From Morinoia aosen (lineage: Eukaryota > Arthropoda > Malacostraca > Amphipoda > Talitridae): DNA of 64,000 bases. The position numbers were made by a program, and so were the translations under genes. How positions within the stretch are numbered: position 1 is the stretch's first letter; every line of letters begins with the position of its first letter. Positions 24,405-61,348 of the stretch are shown here, in pieces. The notes beneath the pieces were generated by a model that worked only from the letters and a program-made list of their open reading frames with translations, did not search any database and was not told the DNA's origin. The DNA lies in contig CM059568.1 of the NCBI GenBank assembly GCA_030386875.1, positions 29,072,120 to 29,136,119 of the forward strand. The letters run 5' to 3'.

Positions 24405-24414
24405 GCTGCAAGGG
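24405..24414. other. Left target site duplication, GCTGCAAGGG
   Basis: The same ten bases stand at 61339-61348, directly outside the other terminus. Ten bases is within the 8-11 bp range of MULE elements. Confidence 0.88.
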
Positions 24415-24476
24415 ACCGGCGCGCCATTTCATAGAACCCATCTTAGATCCTTACCGAGTTACCCTAACGAAAAGGG

Positions 24477-25025
24477 TAATTTCTAAACTATAAGACGTAC
24501 AATCTTGAAATTAGTACCAAATTAATGGGCGTGACGAGTACAATTTATTTGTGCAATTCAAAAATTTTTTACGCCCCTGTGGGGGGCAGGAAGAAGGCCT
24601 CTCGTGGCCCGTCAATCGTCGGCCGATTTTCTCTATAAGCCTCATTTTGGACTCCTCATAGTTGCTGTTAATATTGCACCTAACAATTTGAAAGTAGTCT
24701 CATTATTAAGATCGATTAATTCTCCAAATGTGAGTGTATAATAAAACTGTCATACGCTCCCTGGAGGAAGATGAAGAGCAAGTTTCTCCTAGCCTCGGAA
24801 TGGTCGACCGATTTCTCAAAAGGCTCATTTTGGACCACTCATAATTTCTAAACTATTGCACCTAAAAATTTAAAAGTCGGTTCATTTTAAGCGTCAATTC
24901 ATTCTCCAAATGTGAGTGTATAATAAAAATCTCATACGCCCCTTGGGGGATGACAGAGACCAAGGTTTCTCCAGCTTCTATTTGCCTCGTAATCCGCCCT
25001 GCCGAAGGGCGCGCTCACCTAAGTT
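24477..25025 (+). repeat. Three 183-bp subterminal tandem repeats
   Basis: Units start at 24477, 24660 and 24843, exactly 183 bp apart. They share AATTTCTAAACTATTGCACC-like starts, CTCCAAATGTGAGTGTATAATAAAA, a GCCCCTGTGGGGG-like block and CTCATTTTGGACTCCTCAT. The first unit is the most diverged. The array is mirrored in the right arm. Subterminal arrays like this often serve as transposase binding sites; here that is inference. Confidence 0.75.
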
Positions 25026-25877
25026 ATGAAGTACTGTTGAAATGCTGGTCGTTCGCTGGTCGTTTTGCCTTGCGTTCTAGGGGCTCTCACAATCACATCG
25101 TGGGTCTTCGAATCCCGCAGGTGATGAACTTTTTTCTTAGCGATCACTTTCATGTTTTTCTTACTGATGTAGACTTTTGTCAGGCAATATTATAAGTAGA
25201 GCTGAGCCAATGCATAACTTGCATATATGCACTCAGAGAGATATGCAGAACGTGTTATGCAATGCAAAAAATTGTCTTGTGCATTTGCAAAATCACATAT
25301 GCAATTACGCATATACACTACAACAGATGTAATATGCAAAGTGCTTTTTTCATATGCACAATATCATAGTACATATGGTCTCATGCGAGTTGTGCAATTT
25401 GATCGTCCTGTTGTTAATGTAAAACTGCAAAATTGTTCCTTCATCCAGAAATTTTCTACATTGATGGCACCTCTCGCATACATACTCTCAGTTGCAAGCA
25501 ACATCACAAGTTTTACCTGGTGCACTGTCGTCAGTGCCTGATCCCCAGGTCACCTTCTTGACCTGTTGTTCAGTTTTTAAATATGGTTCATCAACCAAAT
25601 ACAATAGAGGTGTCCGAACTGAAATTAATGTACTTTCAAGTTCTTAGGAATATGATAGTGTGATAGTTTTGTACATCTAGTGATAGTTTTCTTGTTCTCT
25701 TCTACACATAGGCCTAACTATACTTACAAAAGTCTTCAAGTGAAAAGACAACTGTGAAATTAGTATCAATTTCCGATACATACGCTATAGTGAAGTAATA
25801 ATCAATACCTCTGTTGTGCTCTGCCTGTTCAGTAACAAATGAGGAGGAACTCAACAAATCAACTTTCGGTGCTCGCA

Positions 25878-25930
25878 TCACCAACTTCCCTTCCCTCAAG
25901 GTGTCACGGGTTCAAATCCCATCGCTGCGC
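25878..25930 (+). other. tRNA-like T-arm / B-box sequence
   Basis: ACGGGTTCAAATCCCAT has a 7-nt TTCAAAT loop and a mostly paired stem, matching a Pol III B box. A similar but looser copy (GTGGGTCTTCGAATCCCGC) lies at about 25098-25117. I find no complete cloverleaf, so these are probably tRNA-derived SINE remnants. Both recur inverted in the right arm (about 39560-39600 and 40365-40390). Confidence 0.45.
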
Positions 25931-26213
25931 ATGACTTTTTGCATGGCTATCCATCGTTATCACATGCGTTAAGCCCTGTTTTACTCTGGAATCCAGTGAA
26001 TATTTTCATGTTTCAGTGAATATTTTCTTGTTTCTTCACTATCAGCAAATGCATGATATTTTAAATATTGAAGACTGTCGTAAAGGATCATTACTTTACG
26101 GTTCAATATATGAAATATCGCACAAGTTCCAACTAACTTAAGTCCTTCATTCAGCAGTGCATCTGTAAGACTTAGTTGCATATTGCTTGCATATAAATGC
26201 GAGTACTGTGCAT

Positions 26214-30209: not shown

Positions 30210-30497
30210 ATCATTTTTTTATGACTTGCATTCTCTCACATTTTTAAGTTTTAATTCGGGCTGATGTCGCTCTCTTCATCCTAAACGTGCGTATTGAGCA
30301 CTTGAATGTTGTAAGTTACATCGGTGAACCCAGTAGCAAGTCTATATGAATGACACACGCTAGCACGACTGACGAATTTATAGACCCCGGCCAGCCCCGA
30401 TAATTTTTGCAGACCCCAGCCCCGGCCGGCCCCGGCAAAATAGTGCCCTAAACCGGGGTTTTGGCCGGGGTTTTTAGTTTTTTACTCCACCTTTTTC

Positions 30498-31956
30498 ACT
30501 TCAAATTAATCCGAGTCAAGGTCAATTTAATCCAAGATAAGTTCAATTTAATCCAAGTCAGATTAAAATTAATCCGAGTCAGATTCAAATTAATCCGTCA
30601 AGTTCAAATTAATGCAAGTCAAATTCAAATTAAACGTGCTAAGTATCCAGCATCAGGAGGCAGAATGTGATGCAGATCTTTGAGGGGAGTAACATATAGA
30701 AATCAATTACAAAGACTTCGTATTAACTATTCATAAATTTTTTTTCAATTCTACATTAATGGCAGTGTGCATCCACTCAAATATTTATGTTCAAAGACAA
30801 TTTTATGTTACACATGCACATACGCATAGTAGTATCGAGGATTTAATTACTCATATAGAGATTTATATGCGTGAAATTTCGTTCGTCTGCATGCAACTAC
30901 GAAAGATTACCATTTGATGATCTGTAGATTTTACCTTTAAAAGAAATTTAGCAACGAAGTCTGCTTTTGCTTGTTCAAACGATTTTTGTAAAAACAGGTT
31001 TCAACTTTTTTCACCGGTCGAGATGATATATTTGCCTAGGCCTATTCATTTGAAGGGATGGCCCAATTTTTATTGCTATTAGAGAATTGTATCTTTGTAG
31101 TAATGTACTCATATAAATTGTAATCAAATGGTATCGTACATAAGTACTCAGGGAATCTCATTTGCTCATTTCTTTTAAAGGGTAAATCTACACATCGTCC
31201 AGTGGCAATCATTTGTAATTGCATGCACATTTGATTTCCAAAATGTGAAGAAGTGGAATTTCAGGCATGTAAATCTTTATATGAGTGTAAATAAATCCTC
31301 GATACTATGTGTATCTGTAACATAAAAGTAGCTATGAACATAATTATTTGAATGGATGCATACTACCATCAATTTAGAATTATAAAACAACTTTAATGTG
31401 TAGTATAATAGGAAGTTTTTATAATTGTCTTCTAACTGTTACTCCGCCCAAAGATCTGAATCACACTCTGCCTCCTGATGCTGGATACTTTGTACATTTT
31501 CTGACTGCTTGTTTTAACACTGCAGAAATTTTATGTATTCCTTGCTTGAAAGGAAAAACGTTTTTCTTGCTCATCACATCCAACAGATACATTTTTACTC
31601 CAAAAAAACGCTCAAATTAACGAGGGATTTATGTAAATTCTAAATTCAACTTGGAGCTTGATTAATTTGAACTTGATTTGAATTAATTTAAACTTGACTT
31701 GGATTAATTTTAACTTGACTTGGTCTAATTTGAACTTTCCTTGGATTGATATGAACTTGATTTGGATTCATATGAACTTGACGTGGATTCAATTTAGTTT
31801 GAACTTGACTTGGATTAATTTTAACTTGACTTGGATTGATATGAATTTGATTTGGATTAATTTGAACTTGACTTGGATTAAATGGAAGTTGATTTAGATT
31901 AATTTGAACTTGACTTGGATTAATTTGAACTTGACTTGGACTAATAGTTTGAAGTG
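30498..31956. repeat. Foldback repeat I with 21-bp tandem units
   Basis: The left arm 30498-30950 is the imperfect reverse complement of the right arm 31165-31956. For example AAGTATCCAGCATCAGGAGG near 30640 pairs with 31475-31495. Outer parts of both arms consist of 21-bp units (AACTTGACTTGGATTAATTTG), about 14 on the right (31648-31953) and about six on the left. The spacer is about 31000-31160. No protein is coded; it is probably a non-autonomous foldback element. Just left, 30385-30475 is a CCGGCC-rich patch. Confidence 0.8.
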
Positions 31957-34307: not shown

Positions 34308-34315
34308 GTGTAGAC

Positions 34316-34899: not shown

Positions 34900-37800
34900 C
34901 GCCAATGCAAGACTCTCCCAGACCCCCCTGCAGGGGCGGTCCCTCTGAATGAATTCTTCCACGCCGAATTTGCAGCAGCAGCAGTAGCTACGAAGAAATC
35001 ATCATATGTGAGTTCCTATAATCTATAGAGCTTGGAGAATTGTTTACTTATATATGTAAATAAGTGTTAACAATTGTACCAATGATGGACTCCAAAATGA
35101 GCAATACAAATGTTTCTTTGATTACAATCCCACTTTTGTACATCCATTGCAGATAGCTGAAAATGAGTACGAGAGTAACGACGGCGAGGAAAGTGAAGAG
35201 CACTCCTACCGCTCAAAAAATTCCGACGACGACTTCCAGAATAGAATCTCGGAAAATGAGTACGAGAGTAACGACGGCGAGGAAAGTGAAGAGCACTCCT
35301 ACCGCTCAAAAAATTCCGACGACGACTTCCAGAATAGAATCTCGGAAAATGAGTACGAGAGTAACGACGGCGAGGAAAGTGAAGAGCACTCCTACCGCTC
35401 AAAAAATTCCGACGACGACTTCCAGTATGAAATGTCCTCCGGAAAATGCGAACGAAAGTACGAAAGTACGACAGATAACGTTTTTATGGAATGGCAACTA
35501 GCAGCGCAAAGAAGAACCGTCGAAGAAAATTTCGAAAGCTTCATGACAGCAAAGAAAAATAAGATTTATCGTTTGAAAGAACGGTTTAGTGTAAGGCTTC
35601 ACGGTTGCAATAATAAACATATTTATGAACGAGGACATGAAAGGCACATTGCTCTGTTGAAAGGCATAGCAAATCTCAACCAAGAGTGTGATTGCACATT
35701 TTATAAGAGAAAATTATATCCGAGCTCCCTTCTTGCAGGACGACCCTTGTTCAGTTTCCTAGTTCGCTGCCAAGACCCGCTCTGCGGCCTCAAGCAAAAA
35801 ATTGTCTGTTTCAACGGGCAGGAAGAAATAGCGGGAAGATGTACAGTGTTCTTGTTAGAAGCAAAGGAAGCGAATATTAATCATAAAATGAGTAAGAGAC
35901 AGGCAAAAGTTGAGGAAAAACAACGCATTGGACAGGCTGTCTTACTGGAAGGCGCGGCGAGTGTTTACTATAAACAATTTGCCAATACGGGAAATGGTAC
36001 GGATACCACGAAAATTTCGTCCCTCGATCGTGTCAGGAAACTTGGACAGATGGAGAAGAACCGCAATAAACTTGCTAAGGATGACAAGTCGGACTTAGAG
36101 TTAACCATCCAAGGCTTGAAAGCCTTTGACAAGGCCAACAAAAAAATTATCCCCACTTTTGTGCAAGAATACGATACGATCAACTCGAAAATAATACTTC
36201 AGACCGAAGAAGAGCTGCGCGAGCTTGCCAGAACCCCGGATGCCACTCTCCATTTGGATTCCACTGGAGGAATCGTACAAGGTGACGAATCGAACAAATA
36301 CCTCTATCATGCAGCAGTTTTTCAAAGAAAAAAAGGTGATTCGCCATTATCAGCCATCTCTATGGTATGTCAAAAAAGTTCTACAAGCTACATCGAAGGT
36401 ATGCTCGCAATCCTCGTACAGAACTATAGAGAAGTCAACGGCAAAGACTTCAAACCGAAGTGCATAGTAGTCGACCACAGTTTCGCATACTTACATGCGA
36501 TCACTGCTGCCCTGAAATTGGGCGAACTACCATCTTATCTTGACCGCCTGTGGATGACTCCCGATCAGGCGGAGCTCAATTATACACAGGTGAAGCTTTG
36601 CCACGCGCATTTTATGAAGACAATTGCTGGCAAATCTAAGAAGTTCTTCCCAAAACTGAAGCCTCAGGAACGCAGTATAATAAACCAGTATTTTGCCGAT
36701 ATGGCGCAAGCTCCTTCAAAACAGCATATCTACGCAATCTTTAGGAACCTTTGCCAACTTATGCTCACTCCTTTCCTTGGAGAGGGAATTGAACATCTCA
36801 TGAGTAGGGATGTTTCCATCGACGTTGACCCTGACGATGTCGAGCCTACTAACGCAATGATAGTAGAAGACACCGGGAGATACCGCGATAAGTGTGCCGT
36901 GGGTAAGAAATTCGTGGCTATCGCGGCAGACGTTCAAAAAAACATGACTATTGAAGGAAAAATCCCTAATCCTTTGTATTCCCCTGAGATGCTGGAGGAC
37001 GTATTGACGTTTTCCATGCCATTCACTCCACTCTGGTGTGGAGTGCATGGTGGAACTAAGACAAATGGATTAGTAGAAGGGTGGCATAAAATTGTGAAGC
37101 ATGATATACTTCAAGGAGATCGAAAAACACTAGCAGAGTTCATTCGTACTATGAAGACACAAGCGGAGGGTAGAGCGAAAGAAGCATCGCTCGATTACAA
37201 GGAACGCAATAAGAAGGCCGTGAAAGAAGTGAAAGAAGGCGAAAACGAGTATGAAGAGCGCTGGGGGGGAAAGCGATCAAAGCGATCTCGGCCACAATCT
37301 GTAACTGAGAAAGCTCGAGAGAAATTAAATCAAATTCTGCAGGGTCGACCCCAAGAGGGTACTAAGACGATCAAAACGAAATTGAAAAGTGTCCATTCAA
37401 TTTTGAAACTTCAAACAATCCGTGTTAGTAGAGCGCTTTCGATTTCTCCCCAAAAAAAGACTGCACAAAAAAAAGTGAAATTCACCAATGACACGCAACA
37501 CGAAAGCATTGTACAAAACCTGGCCCCTGTATTCTCTCTTGATAATCGAAGTAAATGCATTACAGGAAAACAAGGTTCTGATACATGTCTTAGCACTCAG
37601 CAGGGAATAATAACAGTTGATCTCATCTCCGAGCTTCCTAATGCGAAACAAAATGAAGGAAAAATATCTAGCATTAAGTGTGAATCCTATACGGATCATG
37701 AGCAAAAAACAAATACAAAAGACCTCCTATGTGTCGGGACTTGTGAATCGGAAGACAGAAGTACATTAAGCAAGATTTGGTGGCTCAAAGATTTGAACCT

Positions 37801-38488
37801 GGAAACTAAACACAAACAAAATATCATGAAACGAACCAGTTGGCTTTCGAGTGACGAGATTGAACCCTTTTGTATTCTTATTCGCAGGGAGAACCAACAA
37901 TACAGAGTTCACTCCCCCCTCACGGTTTTCCAACCGAACCCGCTGAGTTGTCACGCAGAGCTGTTTGTGCAAATATTAAATACCTCGTATTTGCAATGTG
38001 CGGTAAAGGTCCGTGAAGAAGGTTACAAAAAAGCTAGCGACACCGGAAGTCATTGGATCGTCGTGACTAACGCACTGTGTCGAGACCGCCGAGCTCAAGA
38101 AGGCGTAGCGCGCGTCCAGTACCTGTGCTCTTTGAATGGTAATCCCAGTTATGATGTGATAAAGTACTTGAAAAATTTATACGCGAACGTGAAGAACATA
38201 AGACACATTCTGATAGAGTGTCTAGGAGTACAACACCAAGAAGATGGAGCGAGTTGCGGTCCATTCTCACTGGCATTTATGACGTCCGTGGTAAATGGAG
38301 AAAACCCGTGCCTCGTCACATATGTGAAGGAGGAAATGCGTTCCCACATCATAGAGTGCCTCGAAGGAGGGTCTATAACACCCTTCCCTTCGTTGATAAA
38401 AGAGAAAAATTTCACGATGGAAGGGGGCAAACCAATTGGACTGCACGGACCCGAAGTTATTAGGCGTCGAACAATTAGCCTAGAATAA
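34900..38488 (+). CDS. MULE-like transposase with C-terminal Ulp1-like protease domain
   Basis: Two exons are supported: 34900-35007 (donor GTGAGT) and 35153-38488 (acceptor TTGCAG), joined in phase 0; an upstream exon with the ATG is missing. Counting from 35147 there are three acidic 31-residue repeats (5-97), a Cys-rich region (about 181-232), and a DDE core with D371 in LHLDSTGG, D443 in CIVVDHSFAY, C485-x2-H488 in LCHAH and E644 in TNGLVEGWHK. A basic KRSKRSRP stretch (about 711) could be a nuclear signal. The C-terminal domain has H969 in SHWIVV, Q1031 and C1037 in SCGPF, with Q six residues before C as in Ulp1/C48 proteases. The usual Asp position looks like Cys (YLCSL), so proteolysis is uncertain. 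There are no internal stops over 1,113 codons. It should cut and move the element in the nucleus. Confidence 0.85.
35159..35428 (+). repeat. Three in-frame 93-bp repeats in the transposase gene
   Basis: Units start at 35159, 35252 and 35345. The first two are identical and the third is identical until near its end. Each encodes 31 acidic residues beginning ENEYESNDGEESEEH. The length keeps the frame. Confidence 0.95.
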
Positions 38489-39297: not shown

Positions 39298-40697
39298 TGC
39301 TGTACTCTCATTTATATGCAAGCAATCTGCGACTGCTGAATGAAGGACTTCAGTTAGTTGGAACTTGTGCGATATTTCAAATATTGAACCGTAAAGTAAT
39401 GATTCTTTACGATAGTCTTCAATATTTAAAATATCATGCATTTGCTGATAGTGAAGAAACAAGAAAATATTCACTGAAACATGAAAATATTCACTGGATT
39501 CCAGAGTAAAACAGGGCTTAACGCATGTGATAACGATGGATAGCCATGCAAAAAGTCATGCGCAGCGATGGGATTTGAACCCGTGACACCTTGAGGGAAG
39601 GGAAGTTGGTGATGCGAGCACCGAAAGTTGATTTGTTGAGTTCCTCCTCATTTGTTACTGAACAGGCAGAGCACAACAGAGGTATTGATTATTACTTCAC
39701 TATAGCGTATGTATCGGAAATTGATACTAATTTCACAGTTGTCTTTTCACTTGAAGACTTTTGTAAGTATAGTTAGGCCTATGTGTAGAAGAGAACAAGA
39801 AAACTATCACTAGATGTACAAAACTATCACACTATCATATTCCTAAGAACTTGAAAGTACATTAATTTCAGTTCGGACACCTCTATTGTATTTGATTGAT
39901 GAACCATATTTAAAAACTGAAGAACAGGTCAAGAAGGTGACCTGGGGATCAGGCACTGACGACAGTGCACCAGGTAAAACTTGTGATGTTGCTTGCAACT
40001 GAGAGTATGTATGCGAGAGGTGCCATCAATGTAGAAAATTTCTGGATGAAGGAACAATTTTGCAGTTTTACATTAACAACAGGACGATCAAATTGCACAA
40101 CTCGCATGAGACCATATGTACTATGATATTGTGCATATGCAAAAAGCACTTTGCATATTACATCTGTTGTAGTGTATATGCGTAATTGCATATGTGATTT
40201 TGCAAATGCACAAGACAATTTTTTGCATTGCATAACACGTTCTGCATATCTCTCTGAGTGCATATATGCAAGTTATGCATTGGCTCAGCTCTACTTATAA
40301 TATTGCCTGACAAAAGTCTACATCAGTAAGAAAAACATGAAAGTGATCGCTAAGAAAAAAGTTCATCACCTGCGGGATTCGAAGACCCACGATGTGATTG
40401 TGAGAGCCCCTAGAACGCAAGGCAAAACGACCAGCGAACGACCAGCATTTCAACAGTACTTCATAACTTAGGTGAGCGCGCCCTTCGGCAGGGCGGATTA
40501 CGAGGCAAATAGAAGCTGGAGAAACCTTGGTCTCTGTCATCCCCCAAGGGGCGTATGAGATTTTTATTATACACTCACATTTGGAGAATGAATTGACGCT
40601 TAAAATGAACCGACTTTTAAATTTTTAGGTGCAATAGTTTAGAAATTATGAGTGGTCCAAAATGAGCCTTTTGAGAAATCGGTCGACCATTCAGAGG

Positions 40698-42900: not shown

Positions 42901-42901
42901 C

Positions 42902-42919
42902 TGGTGCATCGGCCGGGAA
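42902..42919 (+). other. A2 primer binding site, unit 1
   Basis: TGGTGCATCGGCCGGG follows the LTR after one base. Only TGGTG agrees with the tRNA-Trp complement. Unit 2 has the same sequence at 50062. Three GTAGGT words (43149, 43266, 43411) stand in the leader before gag. Confidence 0.5.
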
Positions 42920-47400: not shown

Positions 47401-47817
47401 GATCCCGTGAGCATTGATCGATTAAAAGTCGCATACACTTCTGATCATAGTGTAACTCATAACTCATCCTCCTCTCCGCAGATTTCTCCTTCCACTGAGA
47501 CTCGATCATATCTACCATCTCAGCTTCCTCAGTTGGCTGCCCTGTTGCCTAGTCAACTTGAGTGTAACCCTTTCCACGTGCCTGTACATTCAAACCCTAT
47601 CTCTAACCCTGTCGTAGATTCTAACTCTAGTCCTCTTACTGACACAGCGACAAGTCTGGAGAGACCAGACGAGCCCGCTGCAGTAACTCCTGTTCCTAGG
47701 ACTCTTGCCGATCTAAACTTGCAGACCCGTTTGGTGAAACTGCCCCGCTCAGTATCATTTGCCAATTGCCGAACTCGGCAGGGTCGTGTAGTTCGCCCTC
47801 CTTCCCGCTACAGATGA
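44461..47817 (+). CDS. pol: Pol of A2 unit 1
   Basis: Read in the -1 frame from the gag end. Counting from the TTG at 44494: protease LIDTGSS (D24), RT with YLDD (323-326), RNase H D477, E518 and D543, integrase zinc H662/H666 and C696/C699, integrase D728, D787 and E823 (35 residues between the last two), then a GPF-type module and a P/S-rich tail. It is 1,107 residues to TGA at 47815-47817. Unit 1 has Thr478 next to the RNase H Asp, where unit 2, A1 and C have Ala. All catalytic residues are present. Confidence 0.95.
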
Positions 47818-47829
47818 TTGCAGCGGGTG

Positions 47830-47858
47830 GACCTTTCGGTCTGCGCCTTGGGGGGTAA
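47830..47858 (+). promoter_or_regulatory. A2 unit 1 pre-LTR hairpin and polypurine tract
   Basis: GACCTTTCGGTC (47830-47841) is followed by TTGGGGGGTAA and LTR2. It starts 12 bases after the pol stop. The unit 2 equivalent is at 54989-55017. Confidence 0.75.
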
Positions 47859-50060
47859 TGTAGCATACCGCTACATAAGTGTAAAAAGTATAAATTTGCC
47901 ATTCATACTTAAAGAAATTAAATAGTAGCATTAAAAATATTACTCTAATTTATTATTAATTATTTTCTACTTCTAATTCATAATCATTAAAGTTTTTGTG
48001 TAAATGCATGAAATAATAAAAACAACACTTAACATTTTTCGAGAGAGAAGCCCTCTGGTGGCAATACTGCGCAATGCGCGCCTCTGGTTCAAAAAGCCAC
48101 TCTTTGTTCAGGCGTCCTACCTTGCGGTGTTACAAGCAAATTCTCGTGAGTTTTTAAATGTGTTAGAAAATTATCGTGTTCCTTGTCGTCGCGTCAGTGA
48201 GTATGAATAAGTGACAGTGCAGTATTATTAAGTTGCGTAGTTGTGCGTGGGAATATTGATGTAGCATTTGTCTCATTCTGTGTTTATCTTTTCTCAGCGT
48301 GACTTAGCGTAAAGATATTGCATTTCCGTGTCATGATTTTATTATCAAAGCATAATCATGTTTGATGTGCATATCATTTCCGTGTCATGAATTTATTATC
48401 AAAGCATAATCAGACTCGTTCCTTTTTCATTTCGATAATCTACTAATCCACGATAATTTCTGCTTGAATGAACGCGGCGAATATTGCCGGCGTTCGTTCG
48501 ATAGCGTCTTTGTGTAATGGCGGAACCTCGCATCGCCGTCTTTGTCATTACTCTGTGATTATAAATACTATAGGCATGTGTATAGTAGCATTTATTCTTT
48601 TTTTTTGTAGTTTAAATTACGAAAAGTATTCATGCCTATGCTTGATAAATTTTGGTATTTCATTTCTTAATTCCATACTCGTTTGGGAAACCTTTAAGTA
48701 AACGCCTTTATTTCAATAGAGAAACATTTCTATGGAATTTAATTTAACTCCTCGCATTCTTGTGATAAAAGCACCCAACTATCTGCCTATCTTAAGTGTG
48801 TGCGAATTGCTGGCGGTTTTGGCTTAGGCCAACGCGTAAGCCGCCGGCTAGATCGCCAAGCGTAACTTCGTGCTTTCGTGTTTTCTTTCTTCGCGTATTT
48901 TCCGCTTGTAAAATCAACGTTTAGGTTTCCCCCTTTCTTTCATCATTGGAGATACATATTATTATTTAATTCCTTTATTATTGCATATGATATCTACTAA
49001 GATTTTTCAGTAGGATTTATATCCATAAACTTTAGGATTTTTATGTTTTTCTTACTGCTTTCAAAAGTGCAGTCATTTGATATTTTCACCATTTTTCGTA
49101 GATCTCGTGTTTACTTGCCCGTAGTCTCGGTAAGGAATCACGATCTTTATTCTTGGAAATTCGTAAGCCATTACTCAGAAATTAAAAGCCAGAGGCACTA
49201 GTGATTAAACAATTTATCTCTTGATTAAAAATCTGTCAACCTAAAGTCTGTCCTATCTCTTTTTGAGTTGCCAAAAGTGAGAATCCCAATGTAGCCGGAG
49301 CCAGACCTGTAGGAGTTTTTCAGATTCTCCGTGTGGGAAGAGTTGTCATTATAATTTGGATTCAGTGATTGGAATGTCTTGATGTCTCTCCTGGAATGTT
49401 TCACCCAGCATCTTGGACCCCTGTGCAGGACCTCTACAGCATCGCCATACACACAAACCATTATCCCTGGGCCTTGAGCTTTGCCTTTAACTCAGCCTAG
49501 AGTTTCACGTCAACAAAACGCCACAACACCCATTATCCCTGGGTTTTTCATGAGTGCCATGCTAAACGCTATTCTCACTTAAGCAGTAACTTTTACTTGC
49601 TCCCGTTAACGTGCTAATGTGTTTAATGCGCCAACTTGCTTCTGCTCACATGAGCAAGATTTAACTTGCACCCTCAACCTCACCTTATGTTGAGTCATTA
49701 GTTCTACCTGCACTAATTCACTGATCTGCGCTCAATCACCTGAAATTGCCTAATTCAACTTCCCAAATACAACTCACTCACCCTGATTACTCCATCTCGT
49801 TCCGGCCTTTGTCGACGCCAGCCTGGTTCTCCGGCGAGGATTGCCCACCTCGACAAGCTTCCCGAGATCAAGATCCAAGCCAGTCCTCCTTGGTTTTCCT
49901 TCAATAAACTACACAGCAGAAAAACAAGCTGAGTCCAGTACCGCTTTTCATTATCCTTCTCATAATTTTCCCTTACGCTTCGAGAAATCGTTCGAGTTAT
50001 TCTTGCCGTCAATAATCAATACTTTACATTCAAGCCAACCAACGGCGGAAAAACCCGACA
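47859..50060 (+). repeat. A2 LTR2, shared by both units (2202 bp)
   Basis: It acts as 3' LTR of unit 1 and 5' LTR of unit 2. It has no target duplication beside it. At 48834 and 48858 it has A where LTR1 and LTR3 agree on G and C. Confidence 0.95.
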
Positions 50061-50660
50061 CTGGTGCATCGGCCGGGAAATTATTTTTTAAAATAAAAGA
50101 AAGAACTAAAACTCGAAGTGTTCTGGGGGGTTGTGAGAGTATAATGTTGGCGTATCATTGTAGTGATAAATTTTCCCATGTCGTAGTGGTTTGAGAGATT
50201 TCCTGTGGATTTTTGACCATGCTAATGAATTTTCTCTGAGCAGCTTAAAAATTTTTTTTTTATCTTTCTTTTATGCTGTTTCCCTGTCTTTGTTTGTTTT
50301 TGTGCCTCAGTAGGTAGGGAAATATCTTTCCACTATTTCCGTGCTGTGCATTTATTCCTGACCACCGCAAAAATTCTCGTCCCATTTTCTCTCTTTCCGT
50401 TTTCTTCAACGTATTGATTGATTGAGTAGGTAGAAAAATAATTTTTTTTCTCTCTCCTGCTTAATTTTGTGCCTACGCAAATTGCCGCATACCGCATAAT
50501 AATTTTTTTCTCTTCGTTTCCAATTTCATGTTTCCTGTCTTCTGTTTCAACTTAATTTGAGTGATTGAGTAGGTGAAGAATTAACGCAACCCCTAGCTAC
50601 TTTATCCCAAGTCATAGGCACTGATATCTTAATTGCGCATCCCAAAAAGAGACTGCTAGC

Positions 50661-51638
50661 ATGCCTGACTCCGATAATGAAGATCGAGCACACACAAATC
50701 CCATTAGGCTCCCGCCTTTCATTCCAGGGGACGCGCACACCTGGTTCAACCAGGTGGAAGCAGTGTTTAGGTATAATAGGATAAATCAGGAGATAGACAA
50801 ATTCTACGCGCTTGTGAGCGCTGCGCCCACAAAACTACTAAATAACTCTAATGACCTATTAGAAAACCCTCCAGATCATAACCCTTACGGAATCTTGAAA
50901 GGCAAAATCTTGGCAAGGCTTCAGATGTCCGATGCGGACAAATTCCGAAGTCTTGTAGATGCCTCAGCAATTCCACCTGTCTCTGCTTCCTTCTCTCCCT
51001 CTTCGCTCGTGAAAGAACTTCGGAAACTCGCTACTGGTGTTGCCGTAGCTGAAGGGTTTCTGAAGGAAGTTTTCATGACAAAGCTGTCACCCAACGTGCG
51101 GCCTTTTCTATCGCTAGCAGGGCCCGAGCAAACGTTAGAGAAACTAGCGGAGTCCGCAGAGACTGTGATTAGAAATATCCATTTGCCTCGAGAACCACAG
51201 GTTGCTTCCTTAAATGTAGCAGCTACAACTTTTAGCCCGTCAAATACGGCGCCTAGTGAATCCTCAGCCACAATAGATAAGCTGCAGCAGGACATCGCTG
51301 AAATAAAGCAAGCTCTTCAAAATTTTCAAATAGGTCAGAGTCAAAGTGTGGCTCACATTCAGCAAGGCCCAGGGAGATTCCAAAGCCACCAAAATGCCTA
51401 CGACTATCCCTATGACTATCACTCTAACTATCCTCCTCCTCCTCCTCAACGCTTTGATAGAGGTAGATCTTTTGATAGGTCAAATCAAGACCGCCGTTTC
51501 AGGTCGCGCTCTCGTGATGCTAGTAGCAACTTGTGCTGGTACCACATGAAATTTGGTGACCAAGCTCGCAAATGTGCCTCTAGATACTGTCCTCGTTATA
51601 CCGAAATGACTTCGGGAAACGCCATCAGCGACGCATAG
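50661..51638 (+). CDS. gag: Gag of A2 unit 2
   Basis: The 325-residue Gag is identical in protein sequence to unit 1 (one silent change, CCT to CCC, at 51091-51093). It has the same CHCC knuckle and slippery heptamer. The leader differs from unit 1 by a T-run length change and one substitution near 50603. TAG lies at 51636-51638. Confidence 0.95.
51614..51620 (+). promoter_or_regulatory. -1 ribosomal frameshift heptamer, A2 unit 2
   Basis: G GGA AAC, identical in sequence and phase to unit 1. Confidence 0.7.
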
Positions 51639-54600
51639 TAGCGAGTACTGCGTTGCCTCATTCCCAGACTACTCGCCTCTTGACCATTCACGATCCCGTC
51701 ACCAAGTATCGATTTTTAATTGACACTGGATCCAGTGTATCAATTATCCCAGCCACAGTGAAAGACAAAAACCAACCATGGTTGGCGACATTACGCGCCG
51801 CAAACGGCACGCCAATACCTTGTTTCGGTGAGAGAATTTTAGAGTGCGGTCTGGGATTGAGGAGAAAATTTGTATTCACCTTCTTGATAGCTGAAGTCCA
51901 AGAACCCATAATAGGTGCAGACTTTCTGGCCAAGTATGGCATAGTTGTAGATATTAGGAATCGTTGTATTAGGGACGAGGAGACACAGATCTCAATTCCC
52001 GCTTGCAGCATAACTAGAGCTAATGTCTTGCATTCCTTCTCGATTGCTTTCAAGGAGGAGTGCATGTTTGAACAGGAACTTAAAAATTTCCCTGCATTAA
52101 CAAACCCTAACTTAGTCTCTAACAACATGCAAACATGTACAAAGCACTTCATAGAGACGCAGGGTCCGCCAGTTTTCTCCCGTGCTAGGCGACTGCCGCC
52201 TGATCGATTGGCGTTAGCTAAGAAAGAATTCGCTAGGATGCTCGAAGATGGCATCATACGCACTTCCAAAAGCCCTTGGGCTAGCCCTCTTTTGCTAGTA
52301 CCCAAGGCTAACGGTGAATTCAGACCGTGCGGGGATTTCCGCAGGTTGAACGCCGTTACTTTACCTGATCGATATCCTATCCCCTACCTGCACGATTTCA
52401 GTGCAAATTTAGAGGGAGCACAAATTTTCTCTAAGATCGACCTTCAGTCCGCCTTTCATCAAATTCCCTTGGATGAGTCTGCGATTCCTAAGACCGCGGT
52501 AATCACTCCGTTTGGTCTCTTTGAATTCCTAAAGATGCCATATGGTCTCCGGAACGCACCTCAAACGTTCCAGAGACACATGGCTGAAATTTTCTCTGAC
52601 CTCACTTTCGCTTATGTCTATCTAGACGACATCCTTGTGGCGTCCACAACCCCAGAGTTGCACAAAGACCATCTTCGGGTCGTTTTTCAAAGATTGTCCG
52701 ATAATGGACTCCTCGTAAACCCTGCAAAATGTGAGCTCGGAAAGCCATCACTGATTTACTTAGGCCATGAAATCTCTAGCCTAGGTCTAAAACCTTTGCC
52801 TTCCAAAGTAGAAGTGATCAAAAACTTTCCTCTTCCACAGACCCAGAAGGAACTAAGAAGGTTCCTAGGTTCTGTTAACTTCTACCATCGTTTCATACGC
52901 AACTGTGCTCAAACCTTGGCGCCCTTGTCTGACCTCCTCGAACCGAAACGAAAAGGCAAATCTATCGAGGTAAAATGGACAGAAGAAGCGCGCCAAGCTT
53001 TCGAAGAGATTAAACAAAAGTTAGCTTCCGCGACTGAACTATCCTACCCTCTTGCTAATGCTGATTTCAGCCTCGTTGTTGACGCATCCAGTACCGCCGT
53101 AGGTGCTGTGTTGCAACAACAAGTAGGTACTAATATCTCTCCTCTTGCTTTCTTTTCCAAAAAGCTGTCGCCCACTGAGCGTGGTTATAGCGCGTTCGGT
53201 AGGGAACTTCTTGCTATCTACCTATCTGTGAGACACTTTCGCTATGCTCTAGAGGCGAGGGAGTTTGTGATCTACACAGATCACAAACCTTTGACCTCAG
53301 CGATCAAAATGCCTTCTGAAAGACATTCCCCTAGGGAAGCTCGACACCTGTCATTCATAAGTCAGTTTACCACTGACCTACGTTACATTAAGGGACTAGA
53401 CAATACCGTAGCCGATTGTCTCTCCAGAATCAATTCTGTCCAAACCAGTGGTGAAATCACCTTCGGCAACATTGCTAATGCTCAGAAGGAGGATCCTGAA
53501 CTTCAGGACCTTCTCAAACCTTCTAACACTTCCCCTCCAAAACTAACCTTGGTTGACGGCGTGTACCGTGATGCCGAGCGACCCTCTCGTTTGTATCTTC
53601 CTGCGACGCTCCGCAGAGTAGCTGTCCTCCACCTTCATTCCCTCTCTCATCCCGGTATTAACCGTACATTGCGTTTGGTTTCTGATCGTTTCGTCTGGCC
53701 AGCGATGCGTAAGGAGGTCAAGCAAATTGTGCAAAATTGCCATGCGTGTCAGAGTAGTAAGGTGGTGAAACATAATCGTGCGGCGCTGCAGAGTTGTGCA
53801 TTCACGGGTCACAAGTTTGACTCTATACACCTAGACTTGGTGGGTCCCTTGCCCTTATCGCGCGGTTATTCTTATTTGTTGACCATCATCGATAGGTTCA
53901 CGCGTTGGGTTGAGGCTGTCCCTTTACCTGATACCCAAACTGAGACGGTAGCGCGCGCCTTCTTATCTAACTGGATCTCTAGATTTGGGGTTCCCTTAAG
54001 TGTCACACATGACCGGGGATCACAATTCACCTCCAACTTCTGGAGGGAGCTTAGCTCCGCCTTAGGGTGTGCAAACACATCCACTACAGCATATCATCCG
54101 CAGTCAAATGGACTTATTGAGAGAGTCCACAGAGACCTCAAGTCTGCCTTGCGCTGCCTTAATTGCAGTCACGATTGGACTGATAGACTTCCAGTAGTAC
54201 TACTTAGCATTCGAAACCTACACAGACAGGATCAGCAGTGCACAGCGGCTGAAATGTTGTATGGGAAGACGCTTCGTCTTCCCGGCGACATTGTTGACCC
54301 AAAACCTTTGCCTGAATTTTCATCCGCTGACCGTTCCGCTTATGTAACCTGCCTTAAAGACTGCATGCGTAAGATCGAGTATGTTGCTCCACGAATGCCT
54401 CAGACTCAGGACAAACTAGATGCCGCCCTGCAAGACTGCACACATGTGTATGTCCGCAATGATGCTATAAAACCTACACTCACGCGCCCTTATGATGGCC
54501 CATTCAAAGTACTTAAACGCAAGCAAAAATACTTCATTCTCGAACGATTCGGTTCACACGATCCCGTGAGCATTGATCGATTAAAAGTCGCATACACTTC

Positions 54601-54976
54601 TGATCATAGTGTAACTCATAACTCATCCTCCTCTCCGCAGATTTCTCCTTCCACTGAGACTCGATCATATCTACCATCTCAGCTTCCTCAGTTGGCTGCC
54701 CTGTTGCCTAGTCAACTTGAGTGTAACCCTTTCCACGTGCCTGTACATTCAAACCCTATCTCTAACCCTGTCGTAGATTCTAACTCTAGTCCTCTTACTG
54801 ACACAGCGACAAGTCTGGAGAGACCAGACGAGCCCGCTGCAGTAACTCCTGTTCCTAGGACTCTTGCCGATCTAAACTTGCAGACCCGTTTGGTGAAACT
54901 GCCCCGCTCAGTATCATTTGCCAATTGCCGAACTCGGCAGGGTCGTGTAGTTCGCCCTCCTTCCCGCTACAGATGA
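51620..54976 (+). CDS. pol: Pol of A2 unit 2
   Basis: It is 1,107 residues from the TTG at 51653, with the same domain order and residues as unit 1. The single amino-acid difference I see is Ala478 (VVDASS) against Thr in unit 1; a silent change lies near 52701. Ala is also present in A1 and C, so this unit has the ancestral RNase H sequence. Protease, RT, RNase H and integrase catalytic residues are all present, so this is the best candidate in the window for an active LTR element. Confidence 0.95.
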
Positions 54977-54988
54977 TTGCAGCGGGTG

Positions 54989-55017
54989 GACCTTTCGGTC
55001 TGCGCCTTGGGGGGTAA
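54989..55017 (+). promoter_or_regulatory. A2 unit 2 pre-LTR hairpin and polypurine tract
   Basis: GACCTTTCGGTC at 54989-55000, then TTGGGGGGTAA directly before LTR3. Confidence 0.75.
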
Positions 55018-56592
55018 TGTAGCATACCGCTACATAAGTGTAAAAAGTATATATTTGCCATTCATACTTAAAGAAATTAAATAGTAGCATTAAAAATATT
55101 ACTCTAATTTATTATTAATTATTTTCTACTTCTAATTCATAATCATTAAAGTTTTTGTGTAAATGCATGAAATAATAAAAACAACACTTAACATTTTTCG
55201 AGAGAGAAGCCCTCTGGTGGCAATACTGCGCAATGCGCGCCTCTGGTTCAAAAAGCCACTCTTTGTTCAGGCGTCCTACCTTGCGGTGTTACAAGCAAAT
55301 TCTCGTGAGTTTTTAAATGTGTTAGAAAATTATCGTGTTCCTTGTCGTCGCGTCAGTGAGTATGAATAAGTGACAGTGCAGTATTATTAAGTTGCGTAGT
55401 TGTGCGTGGGAATATTGATGTAGCATTTGTCTCATTCTGTGTTTATCTTTTCTCAGCGTGACTTAGCGTAAAGATATTGCATTTCCGTGTCATGATTTTA
55501 TTATCAAAGCATAATCATGTTTGATGTGCATATCATTTCCGTGTCATGAATTTATTATCAAAGCATAATCAGACTCGTTCCTTTTTCATTTCGATAATCT
55601 ACTAATCCACGATAATTTCTGCTTGAATGAACGCGGCGAATATTGCCGGCGTTCGTTCGATAGCGTCTTTGTGTAATGGCGGAACCTCGCATCGCCGTCT
55701 TTGTCATTACTCTGTGATTATAAATACTATAGGCATGTGTATAGTAGCATTTATTCTTTTTTTTTGTAGTTTAAATTACGAAAAGTATTCATGCCTATGC
55801 TTGATAAATTTTGGTATTTCATTTCTTAATTCCATACTCGTTTGGGAAACCTTTAAGTAAACGCCTTTATTTCAATAGAGAAACATTTCTATGGAATTTA
55901 ATTTAACTCCTCGCATTCTTGTGATAAAAGCACCCAACTATCTGCCTATCTTAAGTGTGTGCGAATTGCTGGCGGTTTTGGCTTAGGCCGACGCGTAAGC
56001 CGCCGGCTAGATCGCCACGCGTAACTTCGTGCTTTCGTGTTTTCTTTCTTCGCGTATTTTCCGCTTGTAAAATCAACGTTTAGGTTTCCCCCTTTCTTTC
56101 ATCATTGGAGATACATATTATTATTTAATTCCTTTATTATTGCATATGATATCTACTAAGATTTTTCAGTAGGATTTATATCCATAAACTTTAGGATTTT
56201 TATGTTTTTCTTACTGCTTTCAAAAGTGCAGTCATTTGATATTTTCACCATTTTTCGTAGATCTCGTGTTTACTTGCCCGTAGTCTCGGTAAGGAATCAC
56301 GATCTTTATTCTTGGAAATTCGTAAGCCATTACTCAGAAATTAAAAGCCAGAGGCACTAGTGATTAAACAATTTATCTCTTGATTAAAAATCTGTCAACC
56401 TAAAGTCTGTCCTATCTCTTTTTGAGTTGCCAAAAGTGAGAATCCCAATGTAGCCGGAGCCAGACCTGTAGGAGTTTTTCAGATTCTCCGTGTGGGAAGA
56501 GTTGTCATTATAATTTGGATTCAGTGATTGGAATGTCTTGATGTCTCTCCTGGAATGTTTCACCCAGCATCTTGGACCCCTGTGCAGGACCT

Positions 56593-57039
56593 TGTAGTGA
56601 TCGCCCTCAGCCGTACTTCAGCCTAATTTCATAAAATATTAAAAAACTAAAATCCTAAAATTAAATTATACAAATGTAGTTATTTTTACAATTCTCGCGA
56701 ACAAGAGTCAAGCCTCGCACTTCGGAGTGCAACCTTCTCCTCAATAAATTCCCCATACCGGCGAGTGAAACTATTCTCTCATTTTCCCCCGGTGTTGGCT
56801 TGTGGTAGTTTGGTTGTTTCATGGATTATTAGACGCTAGATATATTGCGTCCGAGTACCCAGAACTCCTTCGGAGTCAGAGGCCTTAAATCATTCAATTA
56901 GCAATTAAGTGTGCTTGGAAAAGCACTGGTGGCCCTTTTAAATAATAAGAACATTCTCTTTTGAAAACGATAAATCCCTCAATAATCAACATTTAAAAAA
57001 ATCAAATTCTATTAGTCCCCCATTTGGGACAAGTTTACA
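56593..57039 (+). repeat. E 5' LTR, internally deleted (447 bp)
   Basis: It matches both ends of the 2.1-kb 3' LTR but lacks about 1.7 kb. The junction is near 56692 (TTTACAA joined to TTCTCGCGAACAAG). Confidence 0.9.
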
Positions 57040-57248
57040 CTGGTGACCAGAATTCATACCAGAGTTGATAAATAATCCAACAACTGGATTGCCGCAGCCA
57101 TCATTTGGAGGTTTTTGAGCGCATGTCGAGGCTGTTGCAGCTGTTGCATGTTGAACTTTGGAGGAGGTAGTGTTCCTTTCCATCCTTTTCCTCTAATTCT
57201 CAGTAATCAAACATAGTTTTTCCTCTCTAAACTCTTCCCTAATAATAA

Positions 57249-57415
57249 GTTATTGCTACTGCAGCCTATTCTAACAAATTCTTCATGTTTTTTTTCCATT
57301 GCTACTGAAGCCACCTTTTACAAAACTCTTCATGTATTTCCATTGCTACTGAAGCTCCTCACTAATTAACCTTCGCAATTCCCATTGCTACTGCAGCACC
57401 ATTGCTACTGAAGCA
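57249..57415 (+). repeat. E leader repeats
   Basis: Five copies of ATTGCTACTG(A/C)AGC, the last two back to back, in the same arrangement as in C (10841-11048). Confidence 0.75.
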
Positions 57416-57609
57416 CAAAAGTAAACAAAATGTCTGTGTGTGAAACACTACCTTGCCATCCTGAGCAACTTACGGATATAAAAGAACGGCCGTCTGCAGA
57501 CCGGTTGTCCTTTAATAGTTATCCGTATCCCATACGGATATGGAATGCTCAGCGCAAATATTTCACCTTCACTTGACTAAGTCTTTCCTGATATCCCATT
57601 TTTTTTATG

Positions 57610-58135
57610 GCTGCCTGGCCGGTGTGCTGTAGCCTTGGGGACGCCTGAGGAGCACGCACGTTGACTAGGGTGGTTGTGCAAACGACTCACGTCGCACAAT
57701 TGCCGTTGTAACCGGCATATGTGTTTTGGGAAGGAAGGAACTGATTTTTTTTGTACTATGGCATACTATAAAAACCTAGACTGCGACTTCGCATCAGGTC
57801 AACACCTGTCGAGCCAACGAATTCGTACGTCTTAGTTCGCTTTGAATATTCTAAAGTGATGGAAGTCGACCAATTCTAGATTCCACGTTACACCGTTCAA
57901 AGAACGCAGTCGGAGTCGGGAATTCGGGCGCCTCCATTTCGGCGGATACTCTGGCACCGTATGTCCAGTGATGCTAACCTCACAGATTTTTTATGGTCCC
58001 AGTTCGGGATCCGAGCTGAAACTTTCATAGTTCCAGAGTTAACCTTCCACTCTTTTCATCTATTTTCCTCTGTCAATCTTTCTTTTGGGAACTTCCCTTA
58101 GTAACTCCCTCGAGCATCTTACAAGTAACAGCTTC
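57610..58135 (+). pseudogene. pol: Pol remnants in E
   Basis: Short stretches match C pol in order but with large gaps. GGGGACGCCTGAGGAGCACG corresponds to the part after the RT YLDD motif. GGGAAGGAAGGAACTGA is a little further on. GTCAACACCTGTCGAG, CCGTTCAAAGAACGC and a CCCAGTTCGGGATCCGA-like stretch belong to the C-terminal tail. Protease, most of RT, RNase H and integrase are gone. No frame is maintained. The unmatched stretch 57430-57600 may be filler DNA. Confidence 0.75.
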
Positions 58136-58145
58136 AGTGTTACCA

Positions 58146-58177
58146 GACCTTTCGGTCTACATGCGTTGGGGAGTAGC
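58146..58177 (+). promoter_or_regulatory. E pre-LTR hairpin and polypurine tract
   Basis: GACCTTTCGGTC at 58146-58157, then GTTGGGGAGTAGC before the 3' LTR. The hairpin is unchanged although the pol around it is decayed. Confidence 0.75.
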
Positions 58178-60325
58178 TGTAGTGATCGCCCTCAGCCGTA
58201 CTTCAGCCTAATTTCATAAAATATTAAAAAACTAAAATCCTAAAATTAAATTATACAAATGTAGTTATTTTTACAATTTTACAAGACCAAATTAATTCGA
58301 TTAAACTCAAAATTGTACCAAAACTGTGTTTTCGAAAATATTTGCCGATCACGTTTCCGTCAGTCACTTCCGTTGGAAACATTCGCGCAGAACCATTTGG
58401 CAAGCTCGATAGCCATTTTCCAGGCAGACTGCTCATTTCACGTTGTGTGTTCTTCAGATATTAGTCCTTGGGCCCCAGAGGGGCAATTGTAAGTATCAAG
58501 TGTAACGATAAGTGTGTATTATGTCTTAACTTTCCTGTGTTGTGTCTTAACTTGTTCCGTGTTAGGGAGCTCTCGTTATTGTGTCGTAGAAATATTCACT
58601 ATGTTGTCTCTGTGCCAGTGTTAGTTAGTCACCAGCCTCAAGCTCACTGCCACATCTTTGCCATAGTTCTCGTGTTTACTATTCTCCGATGATTCCGTGT
58701 TGTGCTTCAGTGTTAGACGATATTGGCATTAGCTCCTTGGATGTATTTTAGTGCTGAGCAAAGTGTTAAGACACTTTGATGTCCACAGAGATCATTTGTT
58801 AGTGCTCAAATTATTTGTATGTTCCAGCTTCTAATTAATTGTGTCCTCAACTTTTGTATTTTAATTAAGTCGTGATTCAAACAAGTATGGAACCCTTTTT
58901 CACGTTCAACACTCAACGTTTAAAGTCCAAAAATCTTAAGAAATATAATAGGATATTGCAGCAAATCGCGTTTGTATTTTCTGCAGTACTCATTTCAAGT
59001 CAATTCATAAATAATTGTTCCTTATAAATACCTAACTACATTTGACATGACTTTTAGGAATAGAAGCAGCGTTCTTATGTTCAATATTTTTCCATGAATT
59101 AATTGAGCCTTTTTTAAATCACTGTAACTTTGTTCTCAGCTTAGTTGTTGTGACTTTCGTGTCCGTTTATGGGCTGCTCCTTTTTATGTAACTTCTGCTG
59201 CAATTCTTGCTCATCTAAATAATAGAGTATAGAGACTTCACCTTTTCTCATACTTATATTTGTTTTAGTACATTAATTATCTAATACCTCAGTGCTTTAG
59301 CTATTATTTTGGCTATAGCTCATTTAAACTCAGTTGTGTTGCTGCTTGCAATGTCAGGATAGAGCTTGTGACCAGTTGGTCTGGAGCACTGATTCTGGTG
59401 TTGAGATGATTCAGGCTGCGACTCGGGCGCTAGAGTTGCGGACTGATTCTCAGCACCAGACCTCTGCCATTGTTCATCCTGTGAATGTTGCAGTTTTGCG
59501 CAGTCTTGCACATGTGTATGAATAGACTCAAATTTTGTGTTCAAAATAATTCAAGTCACCTGCTCCCTCACATGATCGACGGGACCACACATTCAAGCAC
59601 TCACAAACACGTATGAAACCAAACCCTAACCTCTTAATTTAAGGAGCTTACCTCCTCCGAGTTCTCCTCCAAGTTTCTCCACATATTCAAATTTCACTAT
59701 ACTGGAAAGGCCTGCACCCCTGCAGCTAAGCCGCTAAAATCTCCAGTTGAGACCATTGGGTCGAGAGTCCTCACCATTATTACCGAGTTTTCCCAACCGG
59801 TAACTATTCCCAACACTCATCATTCAACTCACTACTCACTTGGTTTCGGAACCTCCCACACCTACACCACCCTCGACTTCACACTCCAGCACGCGCTTCA
59901 CAAGCCTGAGCTGAACGAATCGTCTGAAGTCCTCCAACCTCCTCTGACTCTCCCCAAGAAGTCTCGCAACAAGAAGTCTCGCGAACAAGAGTCAAGCCTC
60001 GCACTTCGGAGTGCAACCTTCTCCTCAATAAATTCCCCATACCGGCGAGTGAAACTATTCTCTCATTTTCCCCCGGTGTTGGCTTGTGGTAATTTTTGTT
60101 GTTTCATGGATTATTTGACGCTTGAAAAATTGCGTCCGAAGACCCAAACTCCTTCTGAGTCATGATGCAGAGGCCGTAATTCATTCATTTAGCTATTAAG
60201 TGTGCTCTACCCCGAGCACTGGTGACCTCGCCATTAAATGAACATCTTGTGTACTTGATAAATTCCTTGATATTCAACCTTCAAAAATTCAAATCCAGTA
60301 GTCCCCCATTAGGGAGAAGTTTATA
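58178..60325 (+). repeat. E 3' LTR (2148 bp)
   Basis: It starts TGTAGTGATCGCCC and ends AGTTTATA before the ACCT duplication. It is the full-length version of the deleted 5' LTR. AATAAA occurs near 60027 (CCTCAATAAATTCC). Confidence 0.9.
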
Positions 60326-61338
60326 ACCTCTACAGCATCGCCATACACACAAACCATTATCCCTGGGCCTTGAGCTTTGCCTTTAACTCAGCCTAGAGTT
60401 TCACGTCAACAAAACGCCACAACACCCATTATCACTGGGTTTTTCATGAGTGCCATGCTAAACGCTATTCTCACCTAAGCAGTAACTTTTACTTGCTCCC
60501 GTTAACGTGCTAATGTGTTTAATGCGCCAACTTGCTTCTGCTCACATGAGCAAGATTTAACTTGCACCCTCAACCTCACCTTATGTTGAGTCATTAGTTC
60601 TACCTGCACTAATTCACTGATCTGCGCTCAATCACCTGAAATTGCCTAATTCAACTTCCCAAATACAACTCACTCACCCTGATTACTCCATCTCGTGCCG
60701 GCCTTTGTCGACGCCAGCCTGGTTCTCCGGCGAGGATTGCCCACCTCGACAAGCTTCCCGAGATCAAGATCCAAGCCAGTCCTCCTTGGTTTTCCTTCAA
60801 TAAACTACACAGCAGAAAAACAAGCTGAGTCCAGTACCGCTTTTCATTATCCTTCTCATAATTTTCCCTTACGCTTCGAGAAATCGTTCGAGTTATTCTT
60901 GCCGTCAATAATCAATACTTTACATTCAAGCCAACCAACGGCGGAAAAACCCGACAGAGGCTAGGAGAAACTTGCTCTTCATCTTCCTCCAGGGAGCGTA
61001 TGACAGTTTTATTATACACTCACATTTGGAGAATAAATCGATCTTAATAATGAGACTACTTTCAAATTGTTAGGTGCAATATTAACAGCAACTATGAGGA
61101 GTCCAAAATGAGGCTTATAGAGAAAATCGGCCGACGATTGACGGGCCACGAGAGGCCTTCTTCCTGCCCCCCACAGGGGCGTAAAAAATTTTTGAATTAC
61201 ACAAATAAATTGTACTCGTCACGCCCATTAATTTGGTACTAATTTCAAGATTGTACGTCTTATAGTTTAGAAATTACCCTTTTCGTTAGGGTAACTCGGT
61301 AAGGATCTAAGATGGGTTCTATGAAATGGCGCGCCGGT

Positions 61339-61348
61339 GCTGCAAGGG
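61339..61348. other. Right target site duplication, GCTGCAAGGG
   Basis: Identical to 24405-24414 and adjacent to the terminus GGCGCGCCGGT. Confidence 0.88.

Follow-up and report, generated by a model that had tools for sequence, protein, structure and literature searches.

Which kind of mobile element occupies positions 24405 to 61348 of a 64,000-nucleotide stretch of the genome of the amphipod Morinoia aosen (contig CM059568.1, positions 29,072,120 to 29,136,119 of the forward strand; the whole stretch is called the window below)? An initial annotation, made from the sequence alone, had proposed a large transposon of the Mutator-like element (MULE) type, whose transposase carries an Ulp1-like (C48) protease domain. 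We consider it likely that the locus holds an autonomous-looking, recently active cut-and-paste Mutator (MULE)-type transposon of a divergent lineage, in which a C48-like domain is maintained as a working part.

The outer parts of the element are the following:

24405..24414, no strand: left target-site duplication, 10 bp (gctgcaaggg), as read from the letters; the right copy is identical
24415..26158, plus strand: left terminal inverted repeat, 1,744 bp, starting with ACCGGCGCGCC, from the inverted-repeat listing
39332..40697, minus strand: right terminal inverted repeat, inner part, from the same listing
60957..61338, minus strand: right terminal inverted repeat, outer part, from the same listing
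61339..61348, no strand: right target-site duplication, 10 bp (gctgcaaggg), identical to the left copy

The 10-bp duplication given in the initial annotation is exact at both sites and encloses positions 24415-61338. Positions 24415-24796 pair with 60957-61338, and 24793-26158 with 39332-40697, each stretch at 99% complementarity. The right arm is interrupted by a nested long terminal repeat (LTR) block at 40698-60956, and the undivided arm measures 1,744 bp, against the 1.8 kb first stated. Without the nested block the element is 16,661 bp long, in good agreement with the earlier estimate of about 16.7 kb. Within the arms, Tandem Repeats Finder (TRF) found only a 2-copy 20-bp repeat. The arm interior also holds a degenerate two-copy repeat of about 125 bp (24672-24796 and 24854-24979, 78% alike), possibly the start of a Foldback-like arm structure.

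Searching the whole genome (1.99 Gb in 29 contigs) for the exact terminal 20-mer returned 46 forward and 45 reverse occurrences, and 0 for the reversed control. These 91 ends formed 40 facing pairs, leaving 11 without a partner, of which five stood singly and six lay clustered on contig C12. The span of the pairs was 16.0 to 17.2 kb in 30 of the 40, matching the size of the window's element before the nested insertion, 5.9 to 9.3 kb in three, and longer in seven, the window's pair included. Among the 35 pairs whose flanks were read, 26 had an exact 9-bp duplication and three an exact 10-bp duplication. Because the 20-mer is this frequent while its control is absent, and because 29 of 35 pairs carry exact duplications, the ends are not a product of chance. 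The transposon, its termini and its long arms, first described from a single copy, are thereby extended to dozens of copies, with duplications inside the 8 to 11 bp that had been anticipated. The duplicated sequences show a weak preference at most (T at position 2 in 17 of 28, among the 34 non-window pairs). The cluster of six 20-mers on contig C12 (C12:68992390-69013738) has, on each side, two that are separated by 28 bp, a sign of nested insertion or of repeated insertion of ends.

Inside one copy, the two arms differed by 1 to 6 mismatches per ~1,500 bases in 14 of 15 copies, and by 104 in the fifteenth. Left arms compared across the 15 copies differed by 4.7% on average (0.1 to 15.4%, 105 comparisons), and the family therefore has subgroups. 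A protein search (2,841 first-look candidates) scored 41 coding copies, the window's included: 31 were 98 to 100% identical to the window's protein and 10 were 90 to 94% identical, and 35 of the 41 had no internal stop. These coding copies point to recent activity of the family.

The transposase gene has the following parts:

34900..35007, plus strand: internal exon predicted from the sequence, 108 nt long, open throughout and continuing in phase 0 into the main exon (splice sites judged by eye)
35153..38488, plus strand: main exon, stop codon included (open reading frame and sequence reading)
35159..35425, plus strand: acidic head, a 93-bp (31-amino-acid) tandem repeat with 3 units in the window (TRF)
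36179..37126, plus strand: candidate DDE catalytic core, residues 345-660 (motifs, conservation and sub-threshold PF10551)
37757..38485, plus strand: C48/Ulp1-like domain, residues 871-1113 (hhalign and a PDB match)

One long open reading frame on the plus strand (35147-38488) encodes the window's protein of 1113 amino acids, P0001. We located every residue named in the initial annotation, namely D371, D443, C485-x2-H488 and E644 in the core and H969, Q1031 and C1037 near the C terminus. Ten key residues are kept in all 30 aligned rows, which include the window's own copy (L071) and leave out L077 and L089, which carry stops. A putative splice acceptor precedes the ATA at 35153, and a putative acceptor and donor flank 34900-35007. 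Since no in-frame ATG lies upstream of the acidic repeat, an additional 5' exon is expected. The region 34881-35160 is 98.6 to 100% identical across 30 loci compared, L071 among them, and the number of acidic-head units varies from 3 to 10 across the 30 loci L071 to L100. In the 91 to 92% identical copies L101 (whose protein is P0020) and L102, the repeats are worded differently and are, by eye, similarly acidic. Between the left arm and the gene, the longest open reading frame of at least 70 amino acids has 111 and lies opposite the gene's repeat, and the others have at most 99; we treat this interval as presumably non-coding or intronic. An Rfam scan of 24405-40697 gave no match at gathering score.

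A protein database search with residues 110-1113 scored 7,996 candidates and gave no match at E up to 0.001; with residues 345-660, one amphipod gene model was found among 2,043 candidates. This protein, P0021 of Trinorchestia longiramus, is 46% identical to P0001 over 307 amino acids and resembles it in the C-x2-H and the E644 motif; it differs in being joined to Copia-type pol domains, and its matching part lacks both the first and the second D as well as the C48 region. Scans of IMG/VR with P0001 and P0021 gave no confirmed relative. Used as a query in the window's genome, P0021 scored 67 loci (from 2,423 candidates), none of them among the 41 copies of P0001 by coordinates, and 50 of the 67 had open frames longer than 1,000 amino acids. 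We read two of these loci in part, L104, which has one in-frame stop, and L105. Over the matched stretches their identity to P0001 is 46% and 54%, respectively, and is unevenly spread: 59% and 62% in the core, 36% and 39% in the linker (107 and 109 of 171 positions aligned), and 57% and 55% in the C48 region, where the L105 value covers the 47 of 210 positions that were read. Both loci keep the core D, D, C, H and E, and L104 keeps the C-terminal H, C994, N997, Q and C. Furthermore, nonsynonymous divergence (dN) between P0001 and L104 is 0.29 in the core, 0.64 in the linker and 0.37 in the C48 region, synonymous sites being saturated or nearly so. From this pattern of identity and dN against the linker, the C-terminal domain is under constraint similar to that on the catalytic core. 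In these related families, 19 of the 67 open frames have lengths that form a series with a step of 32 amino acids, spanning up to 12 units (1203, 1235, 1299, 1331, 1363, 1395, 1427, 1491 and 1587), which suggests, from frame lengths alone, a length-variable head there as well.

The same genome encodes a second, canonical fusion protein of MULE and Ulp1. Locus L103 (C21:40583000-40586400) is the genome's best match to PF10551, and its protein, P0002, matches PF10551 at 2.2e-11 and Peptidase_C48 at 3.2e-19, with SWIM sub-threshold. P0002 has 17 database relatives, of which P0003 and P0006 are annotated with MULE, C48 and PHD domains, and P0008 of Mytilus edulis with MULE and PHD domains. Unlike P0001, P0002 and its relatives P0003 and P0006 have canonical PF10551 and Peptidase_C48 scores. 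A BLASTP comparison of P0001 with P0002 gave no meaningful match, and copies of P0001 are absent, by coordinates, from the 87 PF10551 matches listed for the genome.

PF10551 was matched over the D443 region in all three families, at E 0.1, 0.013 and 0.081 in pieces of P0001, 0.056 and 0.0052 in L104, and 0.12 in L105, every match falling short of the 27.6-bit cut-off. An hhalign comparison of a six-sequence core alignment with 18 MULE proteins gave P 0.001, and 0 of 200 column shuffles scored as high. This alignment pairs D443 with the second D of MULE transposases and C-x2-H with their C-x2-H, and a short local alignment pairs the motif TN..E...K with its MULE counterpart. P0001 has a presumed DDE triad in which C-x2-H stands after the second D and before the E, and this arrangement is kept in L101, L102, L104 and L105. 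Finally, the duplications of 9 to 10 bp lie in the range of 8 to 11 bp reported for MULEs in passages of PMC6446971. Because of the duplication length, the motif register and the sub-threshold profile matches, we regard a transposase core of the MULE type as probable. Of the original MULE assignment, duplications and motif residues stand, and no profile reached its cut-off; the hidden Markov model searches proposed with it did match PF10551 and Peptidase_C48, in both cases below cut-off.

For the C-terminal domain the agreement is closer. When the last 244 residues were compared by hhalign with the C48 part of the P0002 group, which 9 of its 18 sequences covered well enough, the probability was 97% (92 to 97% over the alignments used), and 0 of 200 column shuffles reached the score. 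The sole sequence match in the PDB was the cysteine protease S273R (6lj9), a weak one (E 0.025 with P0001, 0.045 with alignment A2). Pfam listed Peptidase_C48 below cut-off at E 0.1, alongside the unrelated Reprolysin at 0.13. H969, Q1031 and C1037 correspond to the catalytic His, Gln and Cys and are also kept in L101 and L104. Homology of this domain to C48 is well supported by these comparisons, in line with the Ulp1-like domain first proposed, and protease activity is plausible. The C-terminal domain alone has 153 matches in the genome (150 of 846 candidates scored), with at least 83% identity among the matches listed. Open frames of 329 and 351 amino acids recur among these, which suggests that groups of copies have an upstream stop or frameshift in common, and some of the copies form close inverted pairs (C4:74800810/C4:74805899 and C7:40106083/C7:40112687).

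Several results weigh against this interpretation and concern the ends, the core and the C-terminal domain in turn. At the ends, six of the 35 pairs had no duplication, and the near-identity of a copy's two arms may owe something to conversion, since the copies differ more on average. In the core, no Pfam family reached its cut-off on P0001 or its pieces; the whole of P0001 matched no family at E up to 1, the whole of P0020 none at E up to 10, and a 603-amino-acid piece of P0001 gave no MULE match. In L105 the unrelated PF13326 (E 0.0039) ranked above MULE, and E-values of this size can therefore be chance. As for hhalign, 12 of 200 shuffles reached the score of a smaller core alignment, residues 355-500 alone did no better than shuffles (71 of 200), and the MULE probability ranged from 0.3% to 22% depending on the alignment. 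The best alignment also placed E566, not E644, near the MULE Glu. E566 is not kept in L104 and L105, E644 is, and the short local alignment pairs E644; we thus rejected E566 as the catalytic Glu. A single-sequence AlphaFold model of the core had a predicted local distance difference test (pLDDT) score of 36.6 and was left unused for fold search.

The sub-threshold Pfam scores, the weak profile matches and the near absence of relatives in both database searches would fit a transposase of a separate superfamily (a DDE lineage of Rehavkus, Foldback/NOF or unnamed type) that resembles MULE only by convergence or is its sister group. In Tm1, a Mutator/Foldback family, the arms are composite and Foldback-like and the duplications are 9 bp long (passages of PMC3169594); the arms here hold the degenerate two-copy repeat. 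Foldback arms are long and consist of internal tandem repeats; the arms of this element are long as well, with the 2-copy 20-bp repeat and the one degenerate repeat of about 125 bp. Rehavkus shares the 9-bp duplication and is described with a PHD finger in its transposase (passages of PMC6446971), a domain that Pfam does not find here. The register of the second D and C-x2-H, the paired TN..E...K motif and the 9- to 10-bp duplications argue against a separate superfamily, which we judge unlikely.

In the C-terminal domain, the column of the triad Asp/Asn is occupied by C994, within a C-S-L-N motif that has N997 three residues further on; because of this we name the domain C48-like rather than an active C48 peptidase. 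The ratio of nonsynonymous to synonymous divergence (dN/dS) between close copies ranged from 0.58 to 0.92 overall, reaching 1.14 in the C48 region, in a test without power, and a single-sequence AlphaFold model of this part had a pLDDT of 32.7 and was likewise unused for fold search. Together with the sub-threshold Pfam score, the altered column and the indecisive dN/dS would suit a passenger that was captured passively and has no part in transposition. However, the domain sits in the same place in the L104 family, in the same frame but for one stop, its identity to P0001 exceeds that of the linker, and H, Q and C are kept. We therefore rejected a passive passenger, which seems quite improbable.

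The initial annotation stated that C48 domains occur in Zisupton-type elements; a KDZ/Zisupton-type transposon with such a domain is a very remote prospect here and was rejected. Zisupton duplications are 8 bp, against 9 to 10 bp here, and pieces of P0001, L104 and L105 gave no KDZ-named Pfam match at E values up to 10, in a Pfam copy whose KDZ model is unconfirmed. Host genes or segmental duplications, in spite of the uniform 16- to 17-kb unit with its long gene, have next to no probability and are refuted by the short, exact duplications that flank 29 of the 35 pairs read, with copies on many contigs.

How does a MULE-type element with a C48-like domain compare with known systems? Passages of PMC2836005 report that Mutators from hydra, lancelet and plants encode Ulp1 domains, and P0002 lies in the same genome; the initial statement that no such fused animal MULE with long terminal inverted repeats was known does not hold as far as the fusion is concerned. 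The fusion of Ulp1 and Mutator in animals is already known, and what appears to be new is a divergent lineage of large elements with long arms and an acidic head of variable length. The hydra and lancelet elements (Repbase Reports, cited in passages of PMC2836005), known here by description, share the combination of an animal Mutator with Ulp1/C48. P0002, P0003 and P0006 have a MULE core followed by a C-terminal C48 domain, as in P0001, with PHD annotated in the latter two, and P0003 has, by eye, a CSLN motif in the triad-acid region like that of P0001. The plant Kaonashi elements (KI-MULE) similarly combine MULE with an ULP domain; unlike the element studied here, with its 1,744-bp arms and one fused frame, they are described in passages of PMC2528002 as non-TIR (without terminal inverted repeats), with ULP in reverse orientation. 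Ginger1 is an animal DNA transposase with C-terminal Ulp1 or OTU, and differs by its Gypsy-integrase-type core, its length of 2.6 to 7.1 kb and its arms of 44 to 270 bp (passages of PMC2836005).

In a survey of 4,268 genomes, arthropod MULEs have a single open reading frame of up to 1136 amino acids, comparable to P0001, with element lengths of 1.4 to 10.0 kb and arms of 13 to 1193 bp, versus 16.7 kb and 1,744 bp here (passages of PMC13359780). The words 'peptidase' and 'ulp' have 0 occurrences in the main text of PMC13359780. Known MULE cores served as its tBLASTN queries, with E up to 1e-20 (passages of the same paper), and a survey seeded in this way may miss the present lineage. MULE arms are elsewhere given as 14 to 500 bp in the text and up to 613 bp in a table (passages of PMC6446971). 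VANDAL20 is labelled 'monstrous' in a Repbase title cited in passages of PMC2836005, and there is therefore a plant precedent for large MULEs. Among the matches listed in the open-access literature, Repbase being outside this search, we found no arthropod element of the present kind.

As a working model of this MULE-type transposon, the protein would bind the 1.7-kb arms, its DDE core (D371, D443 and E644 with C-x2-H) would cut at the ACCGG ends, and insertion would occur with a stagger of 9, sometimes 10, bp. The long arms could act as binding-site arrays or promoters, as has been suggested for other MULEs (passages of PMC13359780 and PMC6446971). The C48-like domain would most likely be a protease directed at SUMO or ubiquitin, or else a binding module with altered catalysis, and its target might be the transposase or, where the element inserts, host proteins of repair or silencing; we propose editing of SUMO or ubiquitin marks because of the kind of domain and its conservation. 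We tentatively hypothesize that the family, with its more than two hundred matching places in this genome, could be the tip of a deep, undescribed lineage of MULE-like giants in crustaceans or arthropods that would be almost invisible to Pfam and to surveys starting from known MULEs. Such a lineage would have an obligatory SUMO-protease-like module with an altered triad (H...C-S-L-N...Q...C) and an acidic head that varies in repeat number between copies, both of which would help a 16.7-kb element to move.

The window contains further repeats within and beside the element:

30500..30633, no strand: 21-bp minisatellite within the element, 6.5 copies (TRF)
31660..31945, no strand: 21-bp minisatellite within the element, 13.3 copies (TRF)
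40698..60956, plus strand: nested Gypsy-type LTR retrotransposon block, separate from the transposon

A 94-nt inverted repeat (30632-30725 and 31406-31499, 85%) lies beside the two minisatellites. The nested block has the order LTR-internal-LTR-internal-LTR, with three copies of an LTR of about 2.2 kb and two near-identical internal regions, its 7.16-kb units being 99.9% identical. It is bordered by a 4-bp gagg duplication, seen as a 4-base overlap of the arm pairings and in the bases read. The last LTR is divided by a 3.7-kb insertion with its own end repeats of about 350 bp, 84% alike. To the left of the element (window 1-22000) lie several Gypsy-type pol frames, for example 750-2984, 13559-15643 and 17648-20374 (minus strand). 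Arrays of TTAGG, the arthropod telomere repeat, are plentiful in the genome (6,769 and 8,723 matches, control 0); these arrays and the amphipod relative P0021 by themselves suggest an arthropod, perhaps a crustacean.

Ulp1 or OTU domains occur in transposases of several superfamilies (Ginger, Mutator and CACTA); a role of the ubiquitin pathway in transposition has been proposed (passages of PMC2836005). The present lineage also suggests that a census which starts from known MULE cores can overlook lineages that are abundant. Because the family is young and has many open coding copies that are much alike, it offers a tractable animal system for asking whether transposition needs the protease module and whether this module enables an unusually large element to move.

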